A stretch of DNA of 41,834 nucleotides, taken from Acidithiobacillus montserratensis. GTDB lineage: Bacteria > Pseudomonadota > Gammaproteobacteria > Acidithiobacillales > Acidithiobacillaceae. This document shows positions 6,177-36,247 of this stretch, piece by piece. Within the stretch, counting starts at the first letter, position 1; every line of letters begins with the position of its first letter. A model generated the notes under the pieces. It searched no databases, was not told where the DNA came from, and saw only the letters and a list, made by a program, of their open reading frames with translations. Both the position numbers and the translations under genes were made by a program. The stretch is taken from assembly GCF_018853465.1 (NCBI RefSeq), contig NZ_JABBOU010000010.1, positions 1 to 41,834 on the forward strand, read 5' to 3'.

Positions 6177-7517
6177 TTATTCGTAAACCTGCTCGCCATG
6201 CTGGGTAATATCCAGCCCTTCCCTTTCCTGCTCTTCTTTCACCCGCAAGCCGAGGGTCCAGTCGATGGCTTTCAGGATAATGAAGCTGACGATGGCATCA
6301 TAAACAATGGTCACGCCCACGCCGGTAGCCTGAATCAGCAACTGTCCGGTATTGCCTTCCAGCACCCCCGCCGTACCGCCAATGGCCTTTACCGCAAAAA
6401 CTCCCGTCAGCAGTGCCCCGACAATCCCGCCCATGGCATGTACTCCGAAGGCGTCCAGAGAGTCATCATAGCCCATCCAGTTTTTCAGATAGACAGAGGC
6501 CCAGAAGCAGATGACACCAGCGGCAATGCCGATCCACAGGGCACCCATGGGGCCGACAAAACCCGAAGCCGGGGTAATAGCCACCAGTCCGGCAACGGCT
6601 CCAGAAGTCATCCCCAGAACGGTGGGTTTACCCCGCGCTGCCCATTCCGCAAACATCCAGGCCAGAGCAGCCACGGCCGTCGCAATCTGGGTGACGGCCA
6701 GCGCCATGCCGGCCCGATCACTGGCGGCCACCGCCGATCCAGCATTGAAGCCGAACCAGCCGACCCACAGTAATGAAGCGCCGATGAGGGTGTACATCAG
6801 ATTGTTGGGGTGCATGGCATCGTGTTTGTAGCCTACCCGCTTGCCCATGACCAAAGCCGCCACCAGGCCCGCTACCCCGGCGTTGATGTGGACTACAGTG
6901 CCACCGGCATAGTCCAGTACGCCATCAGCACCCAGCCAGCCGCCCGGTCCCCAGACCATGTGGGCAATGGGCGCATAGACCAACAAGGACCACAGCCCGG
7001 AAAACCAGAGCAGGGCGGAAAATTTCATGCGCTCGGCGAAAGCCCCGACAATCAGTGCCGGGGTGATGATCGCAAAAGTCATCTGGAAGGTCATATAGAC
7101 GGATTCGGGAATGGTTGGCGCGAGGCTGCTGACCGAATCCAGCCCCAGGCCATTGAGAAATAAACGCTCCAGACCGCCCATGAAGGCGTTGCCCGTGGTA
7201 AAAGACAAGCTGTAGCCCACAATCATCCACAACACGGAAATCAGCGCGGTCACCGCAAAACTCTGGGCGGCGGTGGCCAGAACATTTTTCTTGCGCACCA
7301 TCCCTGCATAAAACAGCGCCAGGCCGGGCACGGTCATCAGCAGTACCAGGGCGGTGGATGTCAGCATCCAGGCGGTATCGCCACTATTGAAACTCGGGGT
7401 GCTGGTACCTGCTTCGGCCAATGGGATACCCATGAGAGAAACGAACACTCCCAAACCTAATGCCCCCATCCCTAAAAAACTGTCAAATCGGTATTGCCTT
7501 GCTCCCTTCTTCATCAC
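6177..7517 (-). CDS. amt: Ammonium transporter, AmtB type with signal peptide
   Basis: Classical AmtB-type ammonium channel, 446 residues. A cleavable signal peptide is visible (MMKKGARQYRF, hydrophobic stretch, then GIPLAEAG), as in enterobacterial AmtB. Pore histidines lie in GGTVVHINAGVAGLVAAL and DAFGVHAMGGIVGALL. It differs clearly from the 42-1346 paralogue. It lies between prkA and yeaH, splitting the usual prkA-yeaH pair, and has its own upstream sigma-54 box and NtrC-type site. AAGGAG precedes the start. No PII gene is adjacent, although GlnK from 1401-1739 could bind it. Confidence 0.96.
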   Translation of the reverse strand: MMKKGARQYRFDSFLGMGALGLGVFVSLMGIPLAEAGTSTPSFNSGDTAWMLTSTALVLLMTVPGLALFYAGMVRKKNVLATAAQSFAVTALISVLWMIVGYSLSFTTGNAFMGGLERLFLNGLGLDSVSSLAPTIPESVYMTFQMTFAIITPALIVGAFAERMKFSALLWFSGLWSLLVYAPIAHMVWGPGGWLGADGVLDYAGGTVVHINAGVAGLVAALVMGKRVGYKHDAMHPNNLMYTLIGASLLWVGWFGFNAGSAVAASDRAGMALAVTQIATAVAALAWMFAEWAARGKPTVLGMTSGAVAGLVAITPASGFVGPMGALWIGIAAGVICFWASVYLKNWMGYDDSLDAFGVHAMGGIVGALLTGVFAVKAIGGTAGVLEGNTGQLLIQATGVGVTIVYDAIVSFIILKAIDWTLGLRVKEEQEREGLDITQHGEQVYE

Positions 7518-7581: not shown

Positions 7582-7596
7582 GCAAAAACCGTGCAA
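7582..7596 (-). promoter_or_regulatory. Sigma-54 promoter of amt (6177-7517)
   Basis: On the minus strand it reads TTGCACGGTTTTTGC. It matches TGGCACG-N4-TTGC except for T in place of the first G of the -24 GG. The expected start is near 7570, about 50 bases before the ATG. Confidence 0.7.
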
Positions 7597-7783: not shown

Positions 7784-9718
7784 TCAGTGATGTTTGCGAT
7801 AACGCATGTACCAGTCCACCAGCAGGCGCACCTGTTTTTCCGTGTAGCCTTTGCGAGTCATGCGCGCCACAAAATCCTGATGCTTGCGTTCATCATCGGA
7901 GGAGCTTTTTTTGCCGAAGGAAATCACCGGCAGAAGGTCTTCAGTATTGGCGAACATCTTTTTCTCGATGACGGCGCGCAATTTTTCATAACTGGTCCAG
8001 GACGGGCTGATGCCGTCATTGGAGGCCTTCACCCGCAACACAAAATTGACGACTTCATTGCGAAAGTCCTTGGGATTGGCAATGCCTGCCGGTTTTTCAA
8101 TTTTTTCCAGTTCCTCGTTGAGCAGGCTGCGGTCCATCAACTGCCCGGTATCCGGATCCCGGAATTCCGTATCCTGCAACCAGAAATCGGCATATTGAAT
8201 GTAACGATCAAAGAGATTCTGGCCGTAATCCCCATAACTTTCGAGGTAAGCCTTTTGAATTTCCAGACCCAGAAATTCGGCATATCGGGGGGCCAGTTCA
8301 GTTTTCAGGAAGGCCAGATAATGGGATTCGGTTTCTGCCGGGAACTGTTCGGCACGAATCTGGGTTTCGAGCACATGCAACAGATGCACGGGATTGGCTG
8401 CTACTTCATCACTGTCAAAATTGAAGGTGCGGGACATGATTTTGTAGGCAAAACGGGTGGAAATCCCATCCATGCCCTCATCCACACCGGCGGCATCCCG
8501 GTATTCCTGCAGGCTTTTGGCCTTGGGATCCTTGTCTTTCAGGGATTTGCCGTCATAAATTTCCATTTTCGACCAGAGACTGCTGTTACTGGGCTCCTTG
8601 AGGCGACTGAGCACCGAAAAACGCGCCAGCATATCCAGAGTGTCGGGGGCGCAAGGCGCGGCGCTCAGGGCGCTGCTCTCCAGCAGTTTGTGATAAATGC
8701 GGGTTTCTTCGCTGACGCGCAGGCAGTAGGGCACCTTGACGATATAAACGCGATCAAGAAAGGCTTCATTGCGTTTGTTGTTGCGAAATGCCGCCCATTC
8801 CGATTCATTGCTGTGGGCCAGAATGATACCCTGGAAAGGCATGGCACCAAAGCCCTCGGTACCGTTGTAGGTGCCTTCCTGGGTGGCGGTCAGCAGGGGA
8901 TGCAGCATCTTGATGGGCGCCTTGAACATTTCCACAAATTCCAGTACCCCCTGGGTAGCGACATTCAGCCCGCCCGCATAAGAATAAGCATCAGGATCAT
9001 CCTGGGAAAAGTCCTCCAGTTTGCGAATGTCCACCTTGCCCACCAGACTGGAGATGTCCTGATTGTTCTCGTCGCCGGGCTCTACCTTGGTGATGCCGAT
9101 TTGATGCAGTTGTGAGGGCATCAGACGCTGCACCGTGAATTTGCGGATGTCGCCGCCAAATTCACGCAGCCGCTTGGCCGCCCAGGGAGACATGACCCCG
9201 CCTAGGGCGCGGCGGGAAATGCCGTAACGATCTTCCAGTATCGGGCCATCTTCTTCACGATCAAACAGACCGAGGGGTGACTCGTAGAGGGGGGATACTT
9301 TGCCATTGGCCGCCAAACAGTAGATGGGATAGTGCTCCATCAAAGTTTTTAGGCGCTCGGCCAGAGAGGACTTGGCAGCGCCCACCGGGCCTAACAGGTA
9401 GAGGATCTGCTTGCGTTCTTCCAGCCCCTGGGCGGCATGACGGAAGTAGGCCACGAGATTTTCGACCACATCTTCAATGCCATAAAAGTCCTTGAAAGCA
9501 GGGTAGGTGAGCAGTTTCCGGTTCATGAAAATACGCGACAGGCGGGGATCGGCCTGGGTGTCGATCACTTGCGGCTCGCCGATGGCGGTCAGCATGCGTT
9601 CTGCCGCGCTGGCATAGGCCATGGGTTCTTTTGCGCAGAGGTCCAGATAAGCATCCAAAGAAAGGGTGACTTCCTGCTGTTGCAGGAAACGCTCCTGATA
9701 ACGGTCGAATAAAGCCAT
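7784..9718 (-). CDS. prkA: PrkA/YeaG-type serine protein kinase
   Basis: PrkA family kinase with an AAA-like N-terminal ATPase domain and a C-terminal kinase-like domain, 644 residues, the length of E. coli YeaG. The ATG at 9718 is supported by AAGGAGT and the family start MALFDRYQERF. Walker A is LLGPVGAAKSSLAERL (Lys116); the usual PrkA form is GPVGGGKSS, so two glycines are replaced by alanines. The family acts in stationary phase and nitrogen starvation and is partnered by YeaH and SpoVR, both encoded nearby. It has its own sigma-54 box, an upstream NtrC-type site and a downstream terminator, so it forms a separate transcription unit. Confidence 0.95.
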   Translation of the reverse strand: MALFDRYQERFLQQQEVTLSLDAYLDLCAKEPMAYASAAERMLTAIGEPQVIDTQADPRLSRIFMNRKLLTYPAFKDFYGIEDVVENLVAYFRHAAQGLEERKQILYLLGPVGAAKSSLAERLKTLMEHYPIYCLAANGKVSPLYESPLGLFDREEDGPILEDRYGISRRALGGVMSPWAAKRLREFGGDIRKFTVQRLMPSQLHQIGITKVEPGDENNQDISSLVGKVDIRKLEDFSQDDPDAYSYAGGLNVATQGVLEFVEMFKAPIKMLHPLLTATQEGTYNGTEGFGAMPFQGIILAHSNESEWAAFRNNKRNEAFLDRVYIVKVPYCLRVSEETRIYHKLLESSALSAAPCAPDTLDMLARFSVLSRLKEPSNSSLWSKMEIYDGKSLKDKDPKAKSLQEYRDAAGVDEGMDGISTRFAYKIMSRTFNFDSDEVAANPVHLLHVLETQIRAEQFPAETESHYLAFLKTELAPRYAEFLGLEIQKAYLESYGDYGQNLFDRYIQYADFWLQDTEFRDPDTGQLMDRSLLNEELEKIEKPAGIANPKDFRNEVVNFVLRVKASNDGISPSWTSYEKLRAVIEKKMFANTEDLLPVISFGKKSSSDDERKHQDFVARMTRKGYTEKQVRLLVDWYMRYRKHH

Positions 9719-9818: not shown

Positions 9819-9833
9819 GCATTTCCTGTGCCA
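9819..9833 (-). promoter_or_regulatory. Sigma-54 promoter of prkA
   Basis: Minus strand TGGCACAGGAAATGC: perfect -24 TGGCAC, -12 ATGC with correct spacing, followed by T. The expected start is near 9807, giving a leader of about 90 bases before prkA. Confidence 0.82.
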
Positions 9834-9926
9834 ATCAAGGGGCAGGATCATTTTCCTGTGCGGATACGGCCTGCCTTGTCGTGATGCACTCGCAAGGATC
9901 TGTCGCCCGTCCATGGTGCGTAATAT

Positions 9927-9941
9927 GCACAATTATGGTGC
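9927..9941. promoter_or_regulatory. NtrC-type site upstream of prkA
   Basis: GCAC-AATTATG-GTGC, within TGCAC...GTGCA, is a full dyad 94 bases upstream of the prkA sigma-54 box. An extra GGTGC half-site lies at 9915-9919. It is the only clear NtrC-type site in the 590-base gap that also carries two further sigma-54 boxes. Confidence 0.82.
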
Positions 9942-10023
9942 ATGGCGCGTGCTTGCGCCAGTCTGTTCTGCGCCGGAAGAAGCGTTTGCAAAAAGGCTGG
10001 GATAGAAAAATTTAGTTATTTTT

Positions 10024-10071: not shown

Positions 10072-10096
10072 AAAAAAAGGGCGGGAGGACCGCCCT
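10072..10096 (-). terminator. Intrinsic terminator with no protein gene upstream (end of sRNA candidate)
   Basis: A GGGCGG/CCGCCC stem, closed by an A-T pair, with a five-base loop TCCTC, is followed by seven T on the minus strand. On the plus strand there is no T-run, so it works only for minus-strand transcripts. Confidence 0.85.
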
Positions 10097-10135
10097 GGAA
10101 GCCACTTGAGGAGGAGTGATCAGATGACCATGATC
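10072..10135 (-). ncRNA. Candidate sigma-54-dependent small RNA with anti-SD segments
   Basis: A minus-strand sigma-54 box at 10148-10162 predicts a start near 10135, and a strong terminator ends at 10072, defining an RNA of about 64 nt with no coding potential of note. The 5' end can fold (GAUCA pairs with UGAUC around an 8-base loop). A single-stranded stretch containing CUCCUCCUC follows, then the terminator hairpin with loop UCCUC. Both C/U-rich parts are complementary to Shine-Dalgarno sequences, a common sRNA design. Sigma-54-dependent sRNAs are known in Pseudomonas (NrsZ, CrcZ), but I see no sequence relation. Not verified by expression. Confidence 0.6.
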
Positions 10136-10147
10136 AGTATCTATTAA

Positions 10148-10162
10148 GCAGGAAGCGTGCCA
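10148..10162 (-). promoter_or_regulatory. Sigma-54 promoter of the sRNA candidate
   Basis: Minus strand TGGCACGCTTCCTGC followed by TT: a perfect TGGCACG -24 element and CTGC at -12. It is among the best matches in the window and points at no protein start. It lies back to back with the box at 10213-10227. Confidence 0.78.
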
Positions 10163-10212: not shown

Positions 10213-10227
10213 TGGCATAGCCCTTGC
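10213..10227 (+). promoter_or_regulatory. Sigma-54 promoter of the PDC-sensor gene
   Basis: TGGCATAGCCCTTGC followed by T: full match to TGGCAY-N5-TTGC. The expected start is near 10239, about 70 bases before the ATG at 10310. The nearest clear NtrC-type site is about 270 bases away (9927-9941). Confidence 0.8.
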
Positions 10228-10309: not shown

Positions 10310-11260
10310 ATGAATCGCTTTGAGCATTTTCGGGAGTTGCGCCAGGATCTTTCGGCCTTGCTGGGTGGTGTCGTCGATGCCTTGGCCAGTCCGGCCCTGT
10401 TGCAGCAGTGTGCCGAGGAACAACGCCAAAAACTGCAGTGTCTGATCAATCGTCACCCTTTTCTCGATTTATGTTATCTCCTCGATGCCCAGGGGCGGCA
10501 ACTAGGAGACAATGTCGGCGCCTCCCGGCGGCGAGGGCTGGCCCGGAGTGGCGGTGATGGTGTCGATCGCAGCCACCGGCCCTATTACCGCCTTGCCGTG
10601 AATGCCTGGTCTCCGGTGCTGACCGAACCTTATTTATCTTCAGCCAATGGTCATATCTGCGTCACGGCAACAGCGCCCATTCGTGACGAAAACGGGGTGT
10701 TATTGGGTATGCTGGTGGCGGATAGCGAACTGGATCGCGCCCTGGCGCTGCTCGAAGAAGATGACATCCGGAGAGGATTTGAACCCTATTTCAAAGCCAT
10801 TTATACCTTGTTTTCCATGGGCTTGCTGGCGGTCAGTGTGGCTTTGGGCGTGCATGCCATTGCCGCGCTGGCACAGGTCTGGTCAACGGTTGCGGCTCCC
10901 GACAGCTTTGCTGCGCCCTTTCAGGCGACTATTTTGTTTACCCTGGCCCTGGCTGTATTTGATCTGGCCAAAACCATTTTTGAAGAAGAGGTGCTGCTAC
11001 GCAAGGACATTCGCCGTCACAGTACCACGCGGCGGACTTTAACCCGCTTCATTGCCGCCATTCTTATTGCCGTATCCATCGAAGGGCTGATGCTGGTATT
11101 CAAATTTGCCCTGGATGCTCCTCAGAACCTCTGGCTGGCCGTGTTGCTGCTGCTGGCTGCTGCCTTGCTGCTGGTGTCTTTGGGCGCATACGTGTATCTG
11201 GGTGGTCAGGCTGAAGTCCTGTTATCCCGGCACCGGGAGCAACGTCATGAGACAGATTAA
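10310..11260 (+). CDS. PDC-sensor domain membrane protein with four C-terminal membrane helices
   Basis: Protein of 316 residues, supported by GGAGGTGAAGC just before the ATG. Residues about 30-150 look like a PDC/Cache ligand-sensing domain (FLDLCYLLDAQGRQLGDN; SHRPYYRLAV; YLSSANGHICVTATAPIRD; GVLLGMLVADSEL). Four hydrophobic helices follow at about 165-190, 205-225, 245-268 and 274-297. There is no N-terminal membrane helix or signal peptide, so the sensor may lie in the cytoplasm, unlike most PDC sensors. No kinase, GGDEF or methyl-accepting domain is present. Its sigma-54 promoter suggests induction with the surrounding nitrogen genes. Function unknown. Confidence 0.75.
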   Translation: MNRFEHFRELRQDLSALLGGVVDALASPALLQQCAEEQRQKLQCLINRHPFLDLCYLLDAQGRQLGDNVGASRRRGLARSGGDGVDRSHRPYYRLAVNAWSPVLTEPYLSSANGHICVTATAPIRDENGVLLGMLVADSELDRALALLEEDDIRRGFEPYFKAIYTLFSMGLLAVSVALGVHAIAALAQVWSTVAAPDSFAAPFQATILFTLALAVFDLAKTIFEEEVLLRKDIRRHSTTRRTLTRFIAAILIAVSIEGLMLVFKFALDAPQNLWLAVLLLLAAALLLVSLGAYVYLGGQAEVLLSRHREQRHETD

Positions 11261-18422: not shown

Positions 18423-18475
18423 TTCGATGAATTTTGATGAGAGCCCCGGAAGGCGGACACCCAATTGGAGCTTGC

Positions 18476-19561
18476 ATGGCGCAGCACAAAAACACCAAAA
18501 CATCGTTGTCAGAAAATACGGTGCTGGATGCGTTGGAGTCGGCGGTCCTGACTCTGGATGCCCGGCAGCAATTGCGTTTCATGAATCCGGCCGCAGAAAA
18601 CCTCCTGCGTGTCAGCCAACATCAGGCGCGCGGACAAACCGTGCCAGCCCTCTGCAGCATCATCGGAGAGGACCGCTTTGCGGCACTTTTTGCCGATGCG
18701 CTGGAGTTGAATGGCACGATCCTGAGGCGGGCATTGCCCTTGCAACTGCATGATGGCAGCCATGCCGTGGTGGACCTGGTCGTGACCCCTTTGGCGGCGG
18801 GGCAATTGATTGTGGAAATGCGCCCCATGGAATTACCGGCGCGTCATGCCGAAGAAGAAATGCAGGACCGGATTTATGGTGCGGCCCAGGAAATGCTGCG
18901 GGGGCTTGCCCATGAAATCAAGAATCCCCTCGGCGGCTTGCGGGGTGCTACCCAGCTTCTCGACAGGGAATTGCAGCGCCCGGAACTGAAGGATTATACG
19001 AGAGTAATACTCCATGAGGTGGATCGCCTGCATCATCTGGTGGATCGTCTGCAGGGTCCGCGTACCCGTCCGATTTTTGCCGAAGTCAACATTCACCAGG
19101 TGCTGGAGCATGTCCGCCGACTTCTCCAGGCCGAATTGCCTACGGGAATCTCGCTGCGTTTTGATTATGACCTTTCCATTCCGGAAATTTACGCCGATCA
19201 GGAGCAATTAGTGCAGGTTTTCCTCAATTTGATGCGTAACGCCCAGCAAGCCCTGGACCGTCATGGCACGATTCTCATCCGTACCCGGGTGGATCGTTAC
19301 GTCACCTTGCTCCATCAAAAATTCCGCCTCGCATTACGGGTGGATATTATCGATAGTGGCCCCGGCATTCCTGCGGACCTGTTGCCCCGCATCTTCCTCC
19401 CGCTGGTCACCAGTCGGGCCGAAGGTATGGGTATGGGGCTGGCTATCGCTCAGGGCCTGGTTCGCGGTCATGGGGGGGTGGTTCACTGTCACTCCCGGCC
19501 CGGCGAGACGGTATTCTCGGTGTCCTTGCCCCTCACCCAGCAACGGGAGGCCGCGCAATGA
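18476..19561 (+). CDS. ntrB: Nitrogen sensor histidine kinase NtrB (GlnL)
   Basis: Cytoplasmic two-component kinase/phosphatase acting on NtrC and controlled by PII. 361 residues from the ATG at 18476 (GGAG upstream). Order: PAS domain (about 15-115), dimerisation/phosphoacceptor helix with His146 (GLAHEIKNPLGGLRGATQLL), N box NLMRNAQQAL, then ATP-binding G boxes DSGPGIP and GMGMGLAIAQGL. No membrane segments, as expected for NtrB. Its stop codon overlaps the ntrC start (ATGA). Its likely target sites are present throughout the preceding 18 kb. Confidence 0.95.
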   Translation: MAQHKNTKTSLSENTVLDALESAVLTLDARQQLRFMNPAAENLLRVSQHQARGQTVPALCSIIGEDRFAALFADALELNGTILRRALPLQLHDGSHAVVDLVVTPLAAGQLIVEMRPMELPARHAEEEMQDRIYGAAQEMLRGLAHEIKNPLGGLRGATQLLDRELQRPELKDYTRVILHEVDRLHHLVDRLQGPRTRPIFAEVNIHQVLEHVRRLLQAELPTGISLRFDYDLSIPEIYADQEQLVQVFLNLMRNAQQALDRHGTILIRTRVDRYVTLLHQKFRLALRVDIIDSGPGIPADLLPRIFLPLVTSRAEGMGMGLAIAQGLVRGHGGVVHCHSRPGETVFSVSLPLTQQREAAQ

Positions 19562-20967
19562 AACAGGTCTGGATTATTGACGACGATCCCTCCATTCGCT
19601 GGGTTCTCGAAAAAGCCCTGGCCCAGGCGGAAATTCCTTTCCGGAGTTTCGCCGATGCCGATAGCGCCCTGCGTGCGCTGGGCCGGGATCAACCCGATGC
19701 CATCGTCACCGATTTGCGTATGCCGGGCCTGGATGGTCTGGCTTTTCTGAAAGAAGTCCAGGCGCGTTGGCCGCGCTTGCCGGTCATTGTCATGACCGCA
19801 CATTCGGATCTGGACAATGCGGTGTCTGCTTTTCAAAGTGGGGCCTTCGAGTATCTGCCCAAGCCCTTTGATATGGATGAGGCCATCAATCTGGTACGGC
19901 GGGCTTTGGGCAGTCAGCAGGAAGCAGCTGCGAAAACGCTGCCGGAAGAAAACGACCCGACGGAAATGATTGGTGAAGCGCCTGCCATGCAGGAAGTGTT
20001 TCGGGCCATCGGGCGCTTGTCGCGCTCGCAAATCAACGTGCTGATTACCGGAGAATCGGGAGCCGGCAAAGAACTGGTGGCCAGCGCTCTGCATCGCCAT
20101 AGCCCCCGCGCCAGAGGACCCTTCATCGCCATCAACACCGCTGCCATTCCCGCAGAACTGCTGGAATCCGAACTTTTTGGCCATGAAAAGGGGGCATTTA
20201 CGGGCGCGGTACAAACCCGCCAGGGACGCTTTGAGCAGGCTTCTGGAGGAACCCTGTTTCTGGATGAAATCGGTGATATGCCTGCCGCCCTGCAAACCCG
20301 TCTGCTGCGAGTTCTCTCCGATGGGACTTTTTATCGGGTCGGGGGACATGCCCCGTTGCGCGCGGATGTGCGGGTGCTGGCAGCTACCCACCAGAACCTG
20401 GAAGCCAAGGTCCAGGATGGGAGTTTTCGTGAAGATCTCTATCATCGTTTGAATGTCATTCATATTCATCTCCCGCCCCTGCGGGAGCGGCGGGAGGATA
20501 TCCCGAGACTGGCGCGCCACTTTCTGCGTCACAGCGCCGAACAGCTCGATGTGGAACGCAAGGTTTTGAGCCCTGCGGCCGAAGCCGCCTTTATGGAATG
20601 GCACTGGCCCGGTAATGTCCGGCAGCTCGAAAACGTCTGCCGCTGGATTACCGTCATGGCGCCGACTAGTGAGGTACAACTGACTGATCTGCCGCCGGAA
20701 ATGAGTGTGACAGCAGCGCCTGTAGAGTCCGCTGAAGCCCCGGTTTATCAGGACTGGCGCCTGCAATTGGGGGCCTTGGTGCGCCAGCGCCTGGCCAGCG
20801 GGGAAGAAGCCCTGCTGGATAAAATCCAGCCCCAGTTTGAACGCTGTCTGCTGGAAGCCGCCCTGCAGCATACCCGTGGTCACAAACAGGATGCTGCCCA
20901 GAAACTCGGCTGGGGTCGTAACACCCTGACCCGCAAACTAAAAGAACTGGGTATCGAAGAGCGATAA
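19558..20967 (+). CDS. ntrC: Sigma-54-dependent response regulator NtrC (GlnG)
   Basis: 469 residues, the normal NtrC length. Receiver domain 1-120 with acidic pocket IIDDDPS and phospho-acceptor Asp52 (IVTDLRMPGLDG). AAA+ domain with Walker A GESGAGKE (165-172), the sigma-54 contact loop GAFTGA (212-217) and Walker B LFLDEIGD. C-terminal Fis-type helix-turn-helix (RGHKQDAAQKLGWGRNTLTR). All elements needed to activate sigma-54 RNA polymerase are intact. Predicted to bind the GCAC-N7-GTGC sites listed here. Translation coupled to ntrB by a 4-base overlap. Confidence 0.97.
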   Translation: MKQVWIIDDDPSIRWVLEKALAQAEIPFRSFADADSALRALGRDQPDAIVTDLRMPGLDGLAFLKEVQARWPRLPVIVMTAHSDLDNAVSAFQSGAFEYLPKPFDMDEAINLVRRALGSQQEAAAKTLPEENDPTEMIGEAPAMQEVFRAIGRLSRSQINVLITGESGAGKELVASALHRHSPRARGPFIAINTAAIPAELLESELFGHEKGAFTGAVQTRQGRFEQASGGTLFLDEIGDMPAALQTRLLRVLSDGTFYRVGGHAPLRADVRVLAATHQNLEAKVQDGSFREDLYHRLNVIHIHLPPLRERREDIPRLARHFLRHSAEQLDVERKVLSPAAEAAFMEWHWPGNVRQLENVCRWITVMAPTSEVQLTDLPPEMSVTAAPVESAEAPVYQDWRLQLGALVRQRLASGEEALLDKIQPQFERCLLEAALQHTRGHKQDAAQKLGWGRNTLTRKLKELGIEER

Positions 20968-34588: not shown

Positions 34589-36247
34589 ATGAGTTTTGTT
34601 AGGAATAGAGTAAACTCGAACAGAAATCGGAGTGAAACAATAAAAGAATTTTGCGATAATATTGGGGTCAGTAAAGAAGGTTTTTTACTTTACAATAAGG
34701 AGAACGAAAAAGAATATAAGGTTTTTGACTTAATTAAAAAAAATGGCTCTCTTAGAAAGGTGAAGGCTCCTTCTGCTGGTCTTGCGGGTTTACAAAGAAA
34801 GATTTCCAAAATTTTACAAACAATTTATAATCAACCAAATTGTGTTCATGGCTATGTTCCAGATAGATCAGTTGTATCGAACGCACAGTGTCACGTAAAC
34901 AAAAGATATATACTAAGTATAGATATTAATGATTTTTTTGGTTCAATTACTAGAAATCGCATCTTAGGTTTGTTTAGATCTATTTTTTCGGATCAAAATT
35001 TGTGCGAGGCGCTGACCAATATTTGTGTGGTAGATGGATGTCTACCTACGGGATCACCAGCTTCCCCCGTATTATCTAACATGATTATGTTTAAGATGGA
35101 TAGGAAGATAATGAGTATTTGCAAAAATAACCATGTTTTTTATACTAGGTACTCTGATGATTTAACTTTTTCAACAAAAACTAAATCATTTCCAAGTGAG
35201 TTTGTTTATCTTGATGCTTGTGGATCTTTGACGTTAGGAAAAAGTATTGTGGCAATATTTAAAGAGAATGGATTTTCGATTAATTTAAAAAAAACAAAAT
35301 TAAGGAGTCGTTCAAACCGGCAGGTTGTGACTGGAGTTGTTGTAAATAAAATCACAAATATACCAAGTAGTTATATGTCAAACCTCAGAGCTATTAAGAA
35401 TTCCATATCTAAGCATGGTGTTGATGGTGCGCAAAAGATATTTGACGAAAATTATAAAGAAACGAGATATAAAAATAGAGTCAATATAGGTCACCATATT
35501 TCTATTAAGGATATGGTTAGAGGTAAGATTGAATATATTGGCATGGTAAGGGGGAAGCAAGACGCTTTATATCGTAAAAATCTTGATTGGTATAATAAAA
35601 ACTTTAGATCGCTAGGTGATCCGGAAGAATGTGTTTACCCTATTTATTTTATTATTGATATGCCCGAAAAATCTAAACAGAAAGATCATCGCATTAAAAA
35701 TGATTGTGGTCAGGGCACATGCTTTTTTTTGGAAGATGTTGGTATTTTGACGGCTGATCATTTTTTGCCTAGTGTAGAAGATGTGGAAGCTGCAGGTGAT
35801 CATTTAAGACTGTATTTTGAAACTAAAGATGGTTGTAAGCATAACGTTAAAATAGAAAATAGATATCCAAAAATCGATATGGCAGTTTTATCATTGGAGG
35901 ATAATCTTTTTAGAAGTAAAAAACTTTATGTCAACACTGATTTTTCTCACTCTGATAGGTTGACTGTTTCTCTTTATGGATTTCCAGATTGTGCGGTTGG
36001 TGAATCATTGCAAGTGCGTGATTCAGTAATTACTGGCACAAGGAATCGTGCGGACGAAAAAGAAATCATAATAAGAGATGGTATAAAGGCAGGAATGAGC
36101 GGGGGGCCTGTTACCGATCAGGCAAATAGGGTTGTTGGGGTAATTCATAAAGGAGGTATCGACGAATCCGGCAAGTGTTATTATAAGCCGATAAACGATT
36201 TGTATCATATAATTAAGCCTATGCATTCATCAAATCGCAGCAGATAA
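34589..36247 (+). CDS. Retron-type reverse transcriptase fused to a trypsin-like serine protease
   Basis: 552 residues. RT part (1-340): motif X NAQCH (98-102, fits NAxxH), motif A LSIDINDFFGSI (Asp112), motif B LPTGSPASPVLSN, catalytic YSDD (188-191), motif Y VTG (247-249). NAxxH and VTG are hallmarks of retron RTs. C-terminal part (about 350-545): chymotrypsin-fold protease with His391 (GILTADHF), Asp430 (KIDMAVLSL) and Ser504 (GMSGGPV), a full triad. No signal peptide, so it acts in the cytoplasm. RT-protease fusions exist among catalogued retrons; the type number is not certain to me. GAGGTG precedes the ATG. AT-rich, clearly unlike its neighbours; probably phage defence. Confidence 0.92.
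   Translation: MSFVRNRVNSNRNRSETIKEFCDNIGVSKEGFLLYNKENEKEYKVFDLIKKNGSLRKVKAPSAGLAGLQRKISKILQTIYNQPNCVHGYVPDRSVVSNAQCHVNKRYILSIDINDFFGSITRNRILGLFRSIFSDQNLCEALTNICVVDGCLPTGSPASPVLSNMIMFKMDRKIMSICKNNHVFYTRYSDDLTFSTKTKSFPSEFVYLDACGSLTLGKSIVAIFKENGFSINLKKTKLRSRSNRQVVTGVVVNKITNIPSSYMSNLRAIKNSISKHGVDGAQKIFDENYKETRYKNRVNIGHHISIKDMVRGKIEYIGMVRGKQDALYRKNLDWYNKNFRSLGDPEECVYPIYFIIDMPEKSKQKDHRIKNDCGQGTCFFLEDVGILTADHFLPSVEDVEAAGDHLRLYFETKDGCKHNVKIENRYPKIDMAVLSLEDNLFRSKKLYVNTDFSHSDRLTVSLYGFPDCAVGESLQVRDSVITGTRNRADEKEIIIRDGIKAGMSGGPVTDQANRVVGVIHKGGIDESGKCYYKPINDLYHIIKPMHSSNRSR

Follow-up and report, generated by a model that had tools for sequence, protein, structure and literature searches.

A conserved, putatively sigma-54-dependent small RNA with a predicted anti-Shine-Dalgarno seed in Acidithiobacillus montserratensis and its relatives

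The minus strand of a 41,834-nucleotide stretch of the Acidithiobacillus montserratensis genome (the window in what follows) almost certainly carries a gene for a small RNA (sRNA) of about 66 nt, which is bounded by a sigma-54 (-24/-12) box and an intrinsic terminator (Table 1). Comparison of this locus with those of its relatives suggests, with hardly less confidence, that the sRNA is sigma-54 dependent, and activation by NtrC appears very likely. It is probable that the gene product is a trans-acting sRNA that, once activated through NtrC and sigma-54, would block ribosome sites, most plausibly those of porin mRNAs. That pairing of an anti-Shine-Dalgarno (anti-SD) seed would be its main mechanism seems fairly likely.

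Table 1. Features at and around the sRNA locus, with positions counted from the first nucleotide of the window
Feature	Position	Strand	Remarks
prkA (yeaG-type serine kinase), next gene downstream	7784..9718	-	NCBIfam NF011999, PF08298, PF06798
Separate sigma-54 box of prkA, TGGCACAGGAAATGC	9819..9833	-	
NtrC-type palindrome TGCAC-N7-GTGCA	9926..9942		between sRNA and prkA promoter
Overlapping ORF, 140 aa	10034-10456	-	regarded as mechanical
Predicted sRNA, ~66 nt	10072..10137	-	start inferred ~11 nt after box; limits by conservation
Intrinsic terminator hairpin, loop UCCUC here	10078..10096	-	T-run to 10072
Near-invariant ACUCCUCCUC, predicted anti-SD seed, between helices	10108..10117	-	
5' hairpin of sRNA (UGAUCAU / NUGAUCA)	10117..10136	-	one mismatched pair in this species
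Sigma-54 (-24/-12) box of sRNA, TGGCACGCTTCCTGC	10148..10162	-	one mismatch vs TGGCACGNNNNTTGC
Sigma-54 box of divergent Cache-domain gene, TGGCATAGCCCTTGC	10213..10227	+	
Divergent gene, Cache/PDC sensor-like region	10310..11260	+	PF02743, E 3.7e-10, below its cut-off
ntrB-ntrC, likely regulator pair	18434..20967	+	NF008293, TIGR01818 over cut-off

Conservation and fold of the RNA unit

Taken alone and within the window only, box or terminator are at about chance level: 26 box-like sites with at most two mismatches stand against 18.6 expected, a number equalled in 6 of 100 shuffles, six sites have one mismatch, and four terminator-like sites were found in 3.5 kb against 4.1 expected. The case rests on comparison. 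With a query of 181 nt the locus was recovered in 15 of 16 same-genus relatives and, the own genome included, in 23 of 57 genomes overall, and over 92 nt the sRNA region of the window is 100% identical to that of genome G016. When 16 Acidithiobacillus loci are aligned on the box, the 100 nt preceding it have a mean pairwise identity of 0.28-0.45, which rises to 0.74-1.0 over the stretch that runs from the box through to the terminator stem. When they are aligned on the T-run end, the final 25 nt, in which loop and T-run vary in length, show identities of 0.59-0.71, and the 100 nt that follow 0.31-0.45.

A covariance model (R1), built from nine sequences and with matches taken at E values up to 0.01, matches 35 places in 25 of the 29 genomes of the family, including positions 10072-10138 of the window (E = 1.7e-24, with the window itself among those nine sequences). 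In 26 of the 27 strongest matches the pattern TGGCA[CT]-N6-TGC precedes the model start by 9 nt, the sole exception being a second copy in genome G021, and the rate of this box pattern in the same loci, boxes themselves counted in, is 4e-4 per position per strand. Because the limits of identity are sharp and the box is found at a fixed distance across loci, the arrangement is more than chance would give. Among the remaining eight R1 matches, five represent a second sRNA family and possess a box, and three do not. Beside the locus itself, the window's own genome has two weak R1 matches, and G016 one, that are devoid of a box. The covariance search of relatives that the initial annotation had suggested recovers its arrangement of box, RNA and terminator. 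Both signals had been placed correctly, i.e., the minus-strand box and, 52-76 nt after it, a terminator whose stem and T-run are found on the minus strand only, and box, RNA and terminator make up one unit conserved in the 16 Acidithiobacillus loci.

At larger phylogenetic distance, R1 under stricter filters identified in 185 genomes of the class, besides the own genome, two weak matches with no good box upstream. A search of 398 genomes of the phylum for the box combined with CCTCCTC matched 16, own included, and its reversed control 10 (12 matches), and no clear enrichment outside was obtained.

The covariation alignment comprises 24 sequences, 23 of them distinct, and was fitted to the model, hence leaning towards the structure; in it, pairing is kept in 97.1% of the pair cells and two-sided changes occur at 10 of 14 pairs, a result that none of 500 shuffles equalled. 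Such changes affect four of the seven pairs of the 5' hairpin and six of the seven pairs of the terminator hairpin. The 5' hairpin predicted from the window persists as a conserved and covarying fold, although it is not the minimum-free-energy fold in this species, where the centroid holds only a short form. Between the two helices, ACUCCUCCUC is unpaired in the conserved fold and invariant in an alignment of 21 sequences; both copies of G017, which are outside that alignment, read ACCCUCCUC at the seed. Two anti-SD regions had been proposed originally, this one and the UCCUC loop of the terminator. Only the first is conserved, whereas the loop, present in the window, varies in relatives, so that the conservation expected for box and loops in close relatives holds for the box and ACUCCUCCUC but not for the terminator loop.

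Some genomes harbor more than one copy. G021 has two (L139 on contig G021:C2 and L131 on contig G021:C1), each situated near an ntrC copy, and its copy on a 172-kb contig is without the TGGCAC half of the box. A second copy in G017 (L140) is located beside spoVR; a separate box precedes it, and an NtrC-type palindrome without mismatch stands at +270.

A second candidate sigma-54 sRNA was observed in six Acidithiobacillus genomes. It consists of a TGGCAT-type box (TGGTAT in one case), followed after about 40 nt by CCTCCTC, which is weaker in one case, and by a GGGCGG terminator. Judged from translations, it apparently lies between a porin gene and a pyruvate dehydrogenase gene; both neighbors are visible in three of these loci. 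The model made for it (R2), in which the box is included, also matches the window locus (E = 5e-7) and gives a weak match on C160 of the window's genome (E = 0.009). In L142, the sole locus of this second sRNA that was scanned, no palindrome with fewer than two mismatches was found, which suggests that its activator may differ.

The seed and its candidate targets

The seed of the window, UCAC-UCCUCCUC, resembles the tail of 16S rRNA, which we take to be GAUCACCUCCUUA. Within the genus, the pattern GAGGAGGAGT-N1-9-ATG exists in 16 of 17 genomes at 33 places, 15 of which are the antisense of the sRNA itself, and the real genes that repeatedly follow it encode cytochrome c1, as read in six loci, and Porin_O_P-type porins; the Pfam assignment was checked for one cytochrome and two porins. 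Four times in the window's genome GAGGAGGAG stands 3-10 nt before an ATG, i.e., at the sRNA antisense, at one tiny ORF, and at two porin genes. A porin search identified 19 genes in 15 of the 17 genus genomes and gave no match in the other two. At least 9 contiguous nucleotides complementary to the seed are present at 17 of these 19 porin starts, which belong to homologues and are not independent cases, compared with one (ffh) of 24 genes of the window, for some of which the start is a guess. Such matches could in part reflect strong Shine-Dalgarno (SD) sequences in genes for abundant proteins. Duplex energies, evaluated against mononucleotide shuffles, are modest, two porins having z values of -2.5 and -2.1, cytochrome c1 -1.2 and prkA -1.6; among the 24 window starts there are two that score -4.0 and -2.3. 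Porin_O_P-type mRNAs are predicted to be the best candidate targets, and we consider it possible, in a tentative sense, that porins are among the targets. If Porin_O_P starts of G017 were to read GAGGAGGGT instead of GAGGAGGAGT, this would constitute a natural compensatory change for the seed ACCCUCCUC of that genome.

Two neighboring genes were considered as targets and rejected: prkA is not an energy outlier and has only a 7-nt seed match, and ntrB in the window matches over just 4 nt. That either of them is among the targets is unlikely.

Some sRNAs are known to act by binding proteins or by sponging other RNAs, and a genuine sigma-54 sRNA of this sort, which would not cover SD sites at all, would be in line with target energies that are not decisive. 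This seems rather improbable, since the near-invariant element is precisely an anti-SD sequence, left unpaired in the conserved fold, and since so many porin starts match it. A conserved unpaired anti-SD seed and an intrinsic terminator, as expected for a trans-acting anti-SD sRNA, are both present. Comparison thus supports the sigma-54 sRNA with an anti-SD seed that had been proposed from the window, whereas the blocking of ribosome sites is the part of that proposal which we infer.

Promoters, the NtrC-type site and neighboring genes

The sRNA is encoded on the strand of prkA, about 350 nt upstream of this gene, and in another genus (g4) it is located directly before ntrB. Such positions might suggest a 5' leader whose premature terminator, acting as an attenuator, controls prkA or ntrB in cis, and a box scan in G021 (L026), where no good box was detected before the downstream gene, would agree with it. 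However, beyond the terminator the next gene has its own box in 22 of 22 loci (L001-L022), at about the same place before prkA in all 16 Acidithiobacillus loci and before ntrB in the six g4 loci scanned. Identity is low in the 100 nt past the T-run, the downstream gene differs between genera, and the second G017 copy has spoVR as its neighbor. Given the separate conserved box and the changing neighbors, a cis-acting leader is quite improbable. Highly improbable is a plus-strand element in which a strong SD (GAGGAGGAG) would serve the ATG of a small ORF, for although GAGGAGGAGTGATCAGATG is present at 10108-10126 (+) and most of the relatives read show an MTMI start, the ORF is rejected because its length is not conserved, varying between 7 aa in the window and 100 aa or more in relatives, where the ends are unrelated, and moreover conservation stops at the minus-strand box and T-run, the helices covary, and the terminator-like T-run is confined to the minus strand.

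Besides the sRNA and prkA, the divergent Cache gene has a box in 12 of 12 Acidithiobacillus loci carrying that gene, which is less clear in g4. Most of the nearest matches to the protein of this gene in the named collection come from Acidithiobacillus species. The sRNA is kept in four Acidithiobacillus loci (L006, L007, L009, and L011) where a Cache gene was not detected next to it and where the best box in the divergent direction is poor. Another sigma-54-like box, TTGCACGGTTTTTGC, is found in the window at 7582-7596 (-), directly before an ammonium transporter gene (6177-7517), and would fit a nitrogen regulon. At a distance from these genes, positions 34589-36247 (+) encode a fusion of a reverse transcriptase with a trypsin-like protease; this candidate defence gene has RT-Protease_XI as its best match in PADLOC (E = 2.2e-137).

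The palindrome listed in Table 1 is of the kind known for NtrC sites. All 16 Acidithiobacillus loci have it between +189 and +203, 13 of them without a mismatch and three with one, and in 10 loci of other genera it is encountered with zero to two mismatches at +79 to +270, the background being 0.22 per 1.4 kb at no more than one mismatch. An upstream palindrome (at most one mismatch, within 700 nt) exists in just 2 of 27 loci; the usual site is downstream of the sRNA. The start of the ntrB encoded in the window is uncertain (TTG at 18434 or ATG at 18476). In the family, sigma-54 is encoded in 29 of 29 genomes, Hfq in 28, and an orthologous NtrC in 26, consisting of all 25 genomes with the sRNA (66-100% identity) and G001. 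The latter has no sRNA match, and its contig, which starts 99 nt ahead of the Cache gene, would not reach the sRNA site. G018, G020 (71% complete), and G025 possess only NtrC paralogues, the best being 43-45% identical, and no sRNA match. The co-occurrence of sRNA and NtrC is confounded by the linkage between sRNA and ntrBC, since one loss event could explain each case. At the sequence level, the elements of a sigma-54/NtrC-dependent sRNA are present, namely the box at a fixed distance, the NtrC-type site, situated downstream, and NtrC itself.

For the NtrC-activated sRNA that we favor, the following sequence of events can be envisaged. Nitrogen limitation would bring phosphorylated NtrC to the palindrome, which lies about 190 nt downstream of the predicted RNA start and would be common to the sRNA and the prkA promoter. 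NtrC would then activate sigma-54 RNA polymerase at the sRNA box, and a transcript of about 66 nt would stop at the intrinsic terminator. With the 5' hairpin and the terminator folded, ACUCCUCCUC would stay exposed and, probably together with Hfq, pair with SD regions of the GAGGAGGAG type, and translation, most plausibly that of Porin_O_P outer-membrane porins, would be blocked.

Relation to known nitrogen-linked sRNAs

In an Rfam search with the window and the loci of 13 relatives no family reached its threshold, so that at Rfam thresholds the absence of visible kinship stated by the initial annotation holds. The best match below threshold is RF02278 (16.4 bits versus a gathering score of 50), which is missing from the 13 relatives' loci, and suhB RF00519 (14.7 bits versus 41) and alpha-r14 RF02344 (11.7 bits versus 58.8) are below threshold as well. 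RF02278, the Betaproteobacteria toxic small RNA, is exemplified by four RNAs of 57-92 nt that have a terminator (PMC4603805, in part); it is similarly short and terminated, but its match is below threshold and nitrogen control is not described for it in the portion of that source consulted here.

Similar in its regulation is NrsZ of Pseudomonas aeruginosa, which according to excerpts of PMC8395346 depends on NtrB/C and RpoN, is encoded beside ntrC and is made under nitrogen limitation, features that for the present sRNA are predicted. In contrast, NrsZ has a length of about 226 nt, undergoes processing, and acts as an activator of rhlA, where it probably melts a structure, whereas about 66 nt and an anti-SD seed are predicted here between box and terminator. 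MmgR (alpha-r8, RF00519) is likewise a small sRNA with a link to NtrC, by which mmgR is positively regulated according to the title of a reference, but it is alphaproteobacterial, and the excerpts at hand describe no sigma-54 box for it. NfeR1 (alpha-r14, RF02344) shares with the sRNA described here an anti-SD motif in an unpaired region; its CCUCCUCCC motifs are unpaired, it is tied to NtrBC, and it silences ntrB by pairing at the ntrB start region (PMC10746234, in part). The same excerpts describe NfeR1 as having three motif-bearing hairpins, as opposed to the two helices found here, as NtrC-repressed, and as lacking a sigma-54 signature at its promoter. With regard to prkA, NtrC binds the promoter of yeaG, the prkA of E. 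coli, and this gene is counted among those of sigma-54/NtrC in the consulted part of PMC4664914; under prolonged nitrogen starvation the E. coli sRNA SdsR reduces translation of YeaG (PMC10954441, in part). SdsR resembles the present sRNA, which adjoins prkA, in being tied to that gene; unlike it, SdsR is RpoS-dependent and, as that source part states, pairs at -31 to -22, whereas prkA here offers only a 7-nt seed match.

Since nitrogen-linked sRNAs exist (NrsZ, NfeR1, MmgR, and GlnZ, as far as the excerpts cover them) and no match to a known family was found, most likely a new sRNA family of a known kind is involved, NrsZ having been compared by description only. Predictions of sRNAs in A. 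ferrooxidans have reportedly been published. Among the matches listed for the Acidithiobacillus literature, titles and abstract openings do not describe such an sRNA, and in a word search of the main text of a survey of Acidithiobacillia sigma factors from 2025 the terms "sRNA", "small RNA", and "noncoding" are absent.

A more far-reaching idea, speculative and rather doubtful, is that a minimal sigma-54 sRNA family with seeds like the 16S tail might function as a broad translational brake during nitrogen starvation in the Acidithiobacillaceae, with an enhancer beyond the RNA gene shared with prkA or ntrBC and a second related sigma-54 sRNA, also with an anti-SD element, in six genomes of the genus. 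In the sRNA described here NtrC/sigma-54 control and an anti-SD seed are combined, whereas the known sRNAs compared show, in the source parts considered, each of them separately. If our reading is true, bacteria used for bioleaching would possess a nitrogen-responsive riboregulator, and NtrC, the PrkA starvation kinase, and outer-membrane porins would be joined in one testable circuit.
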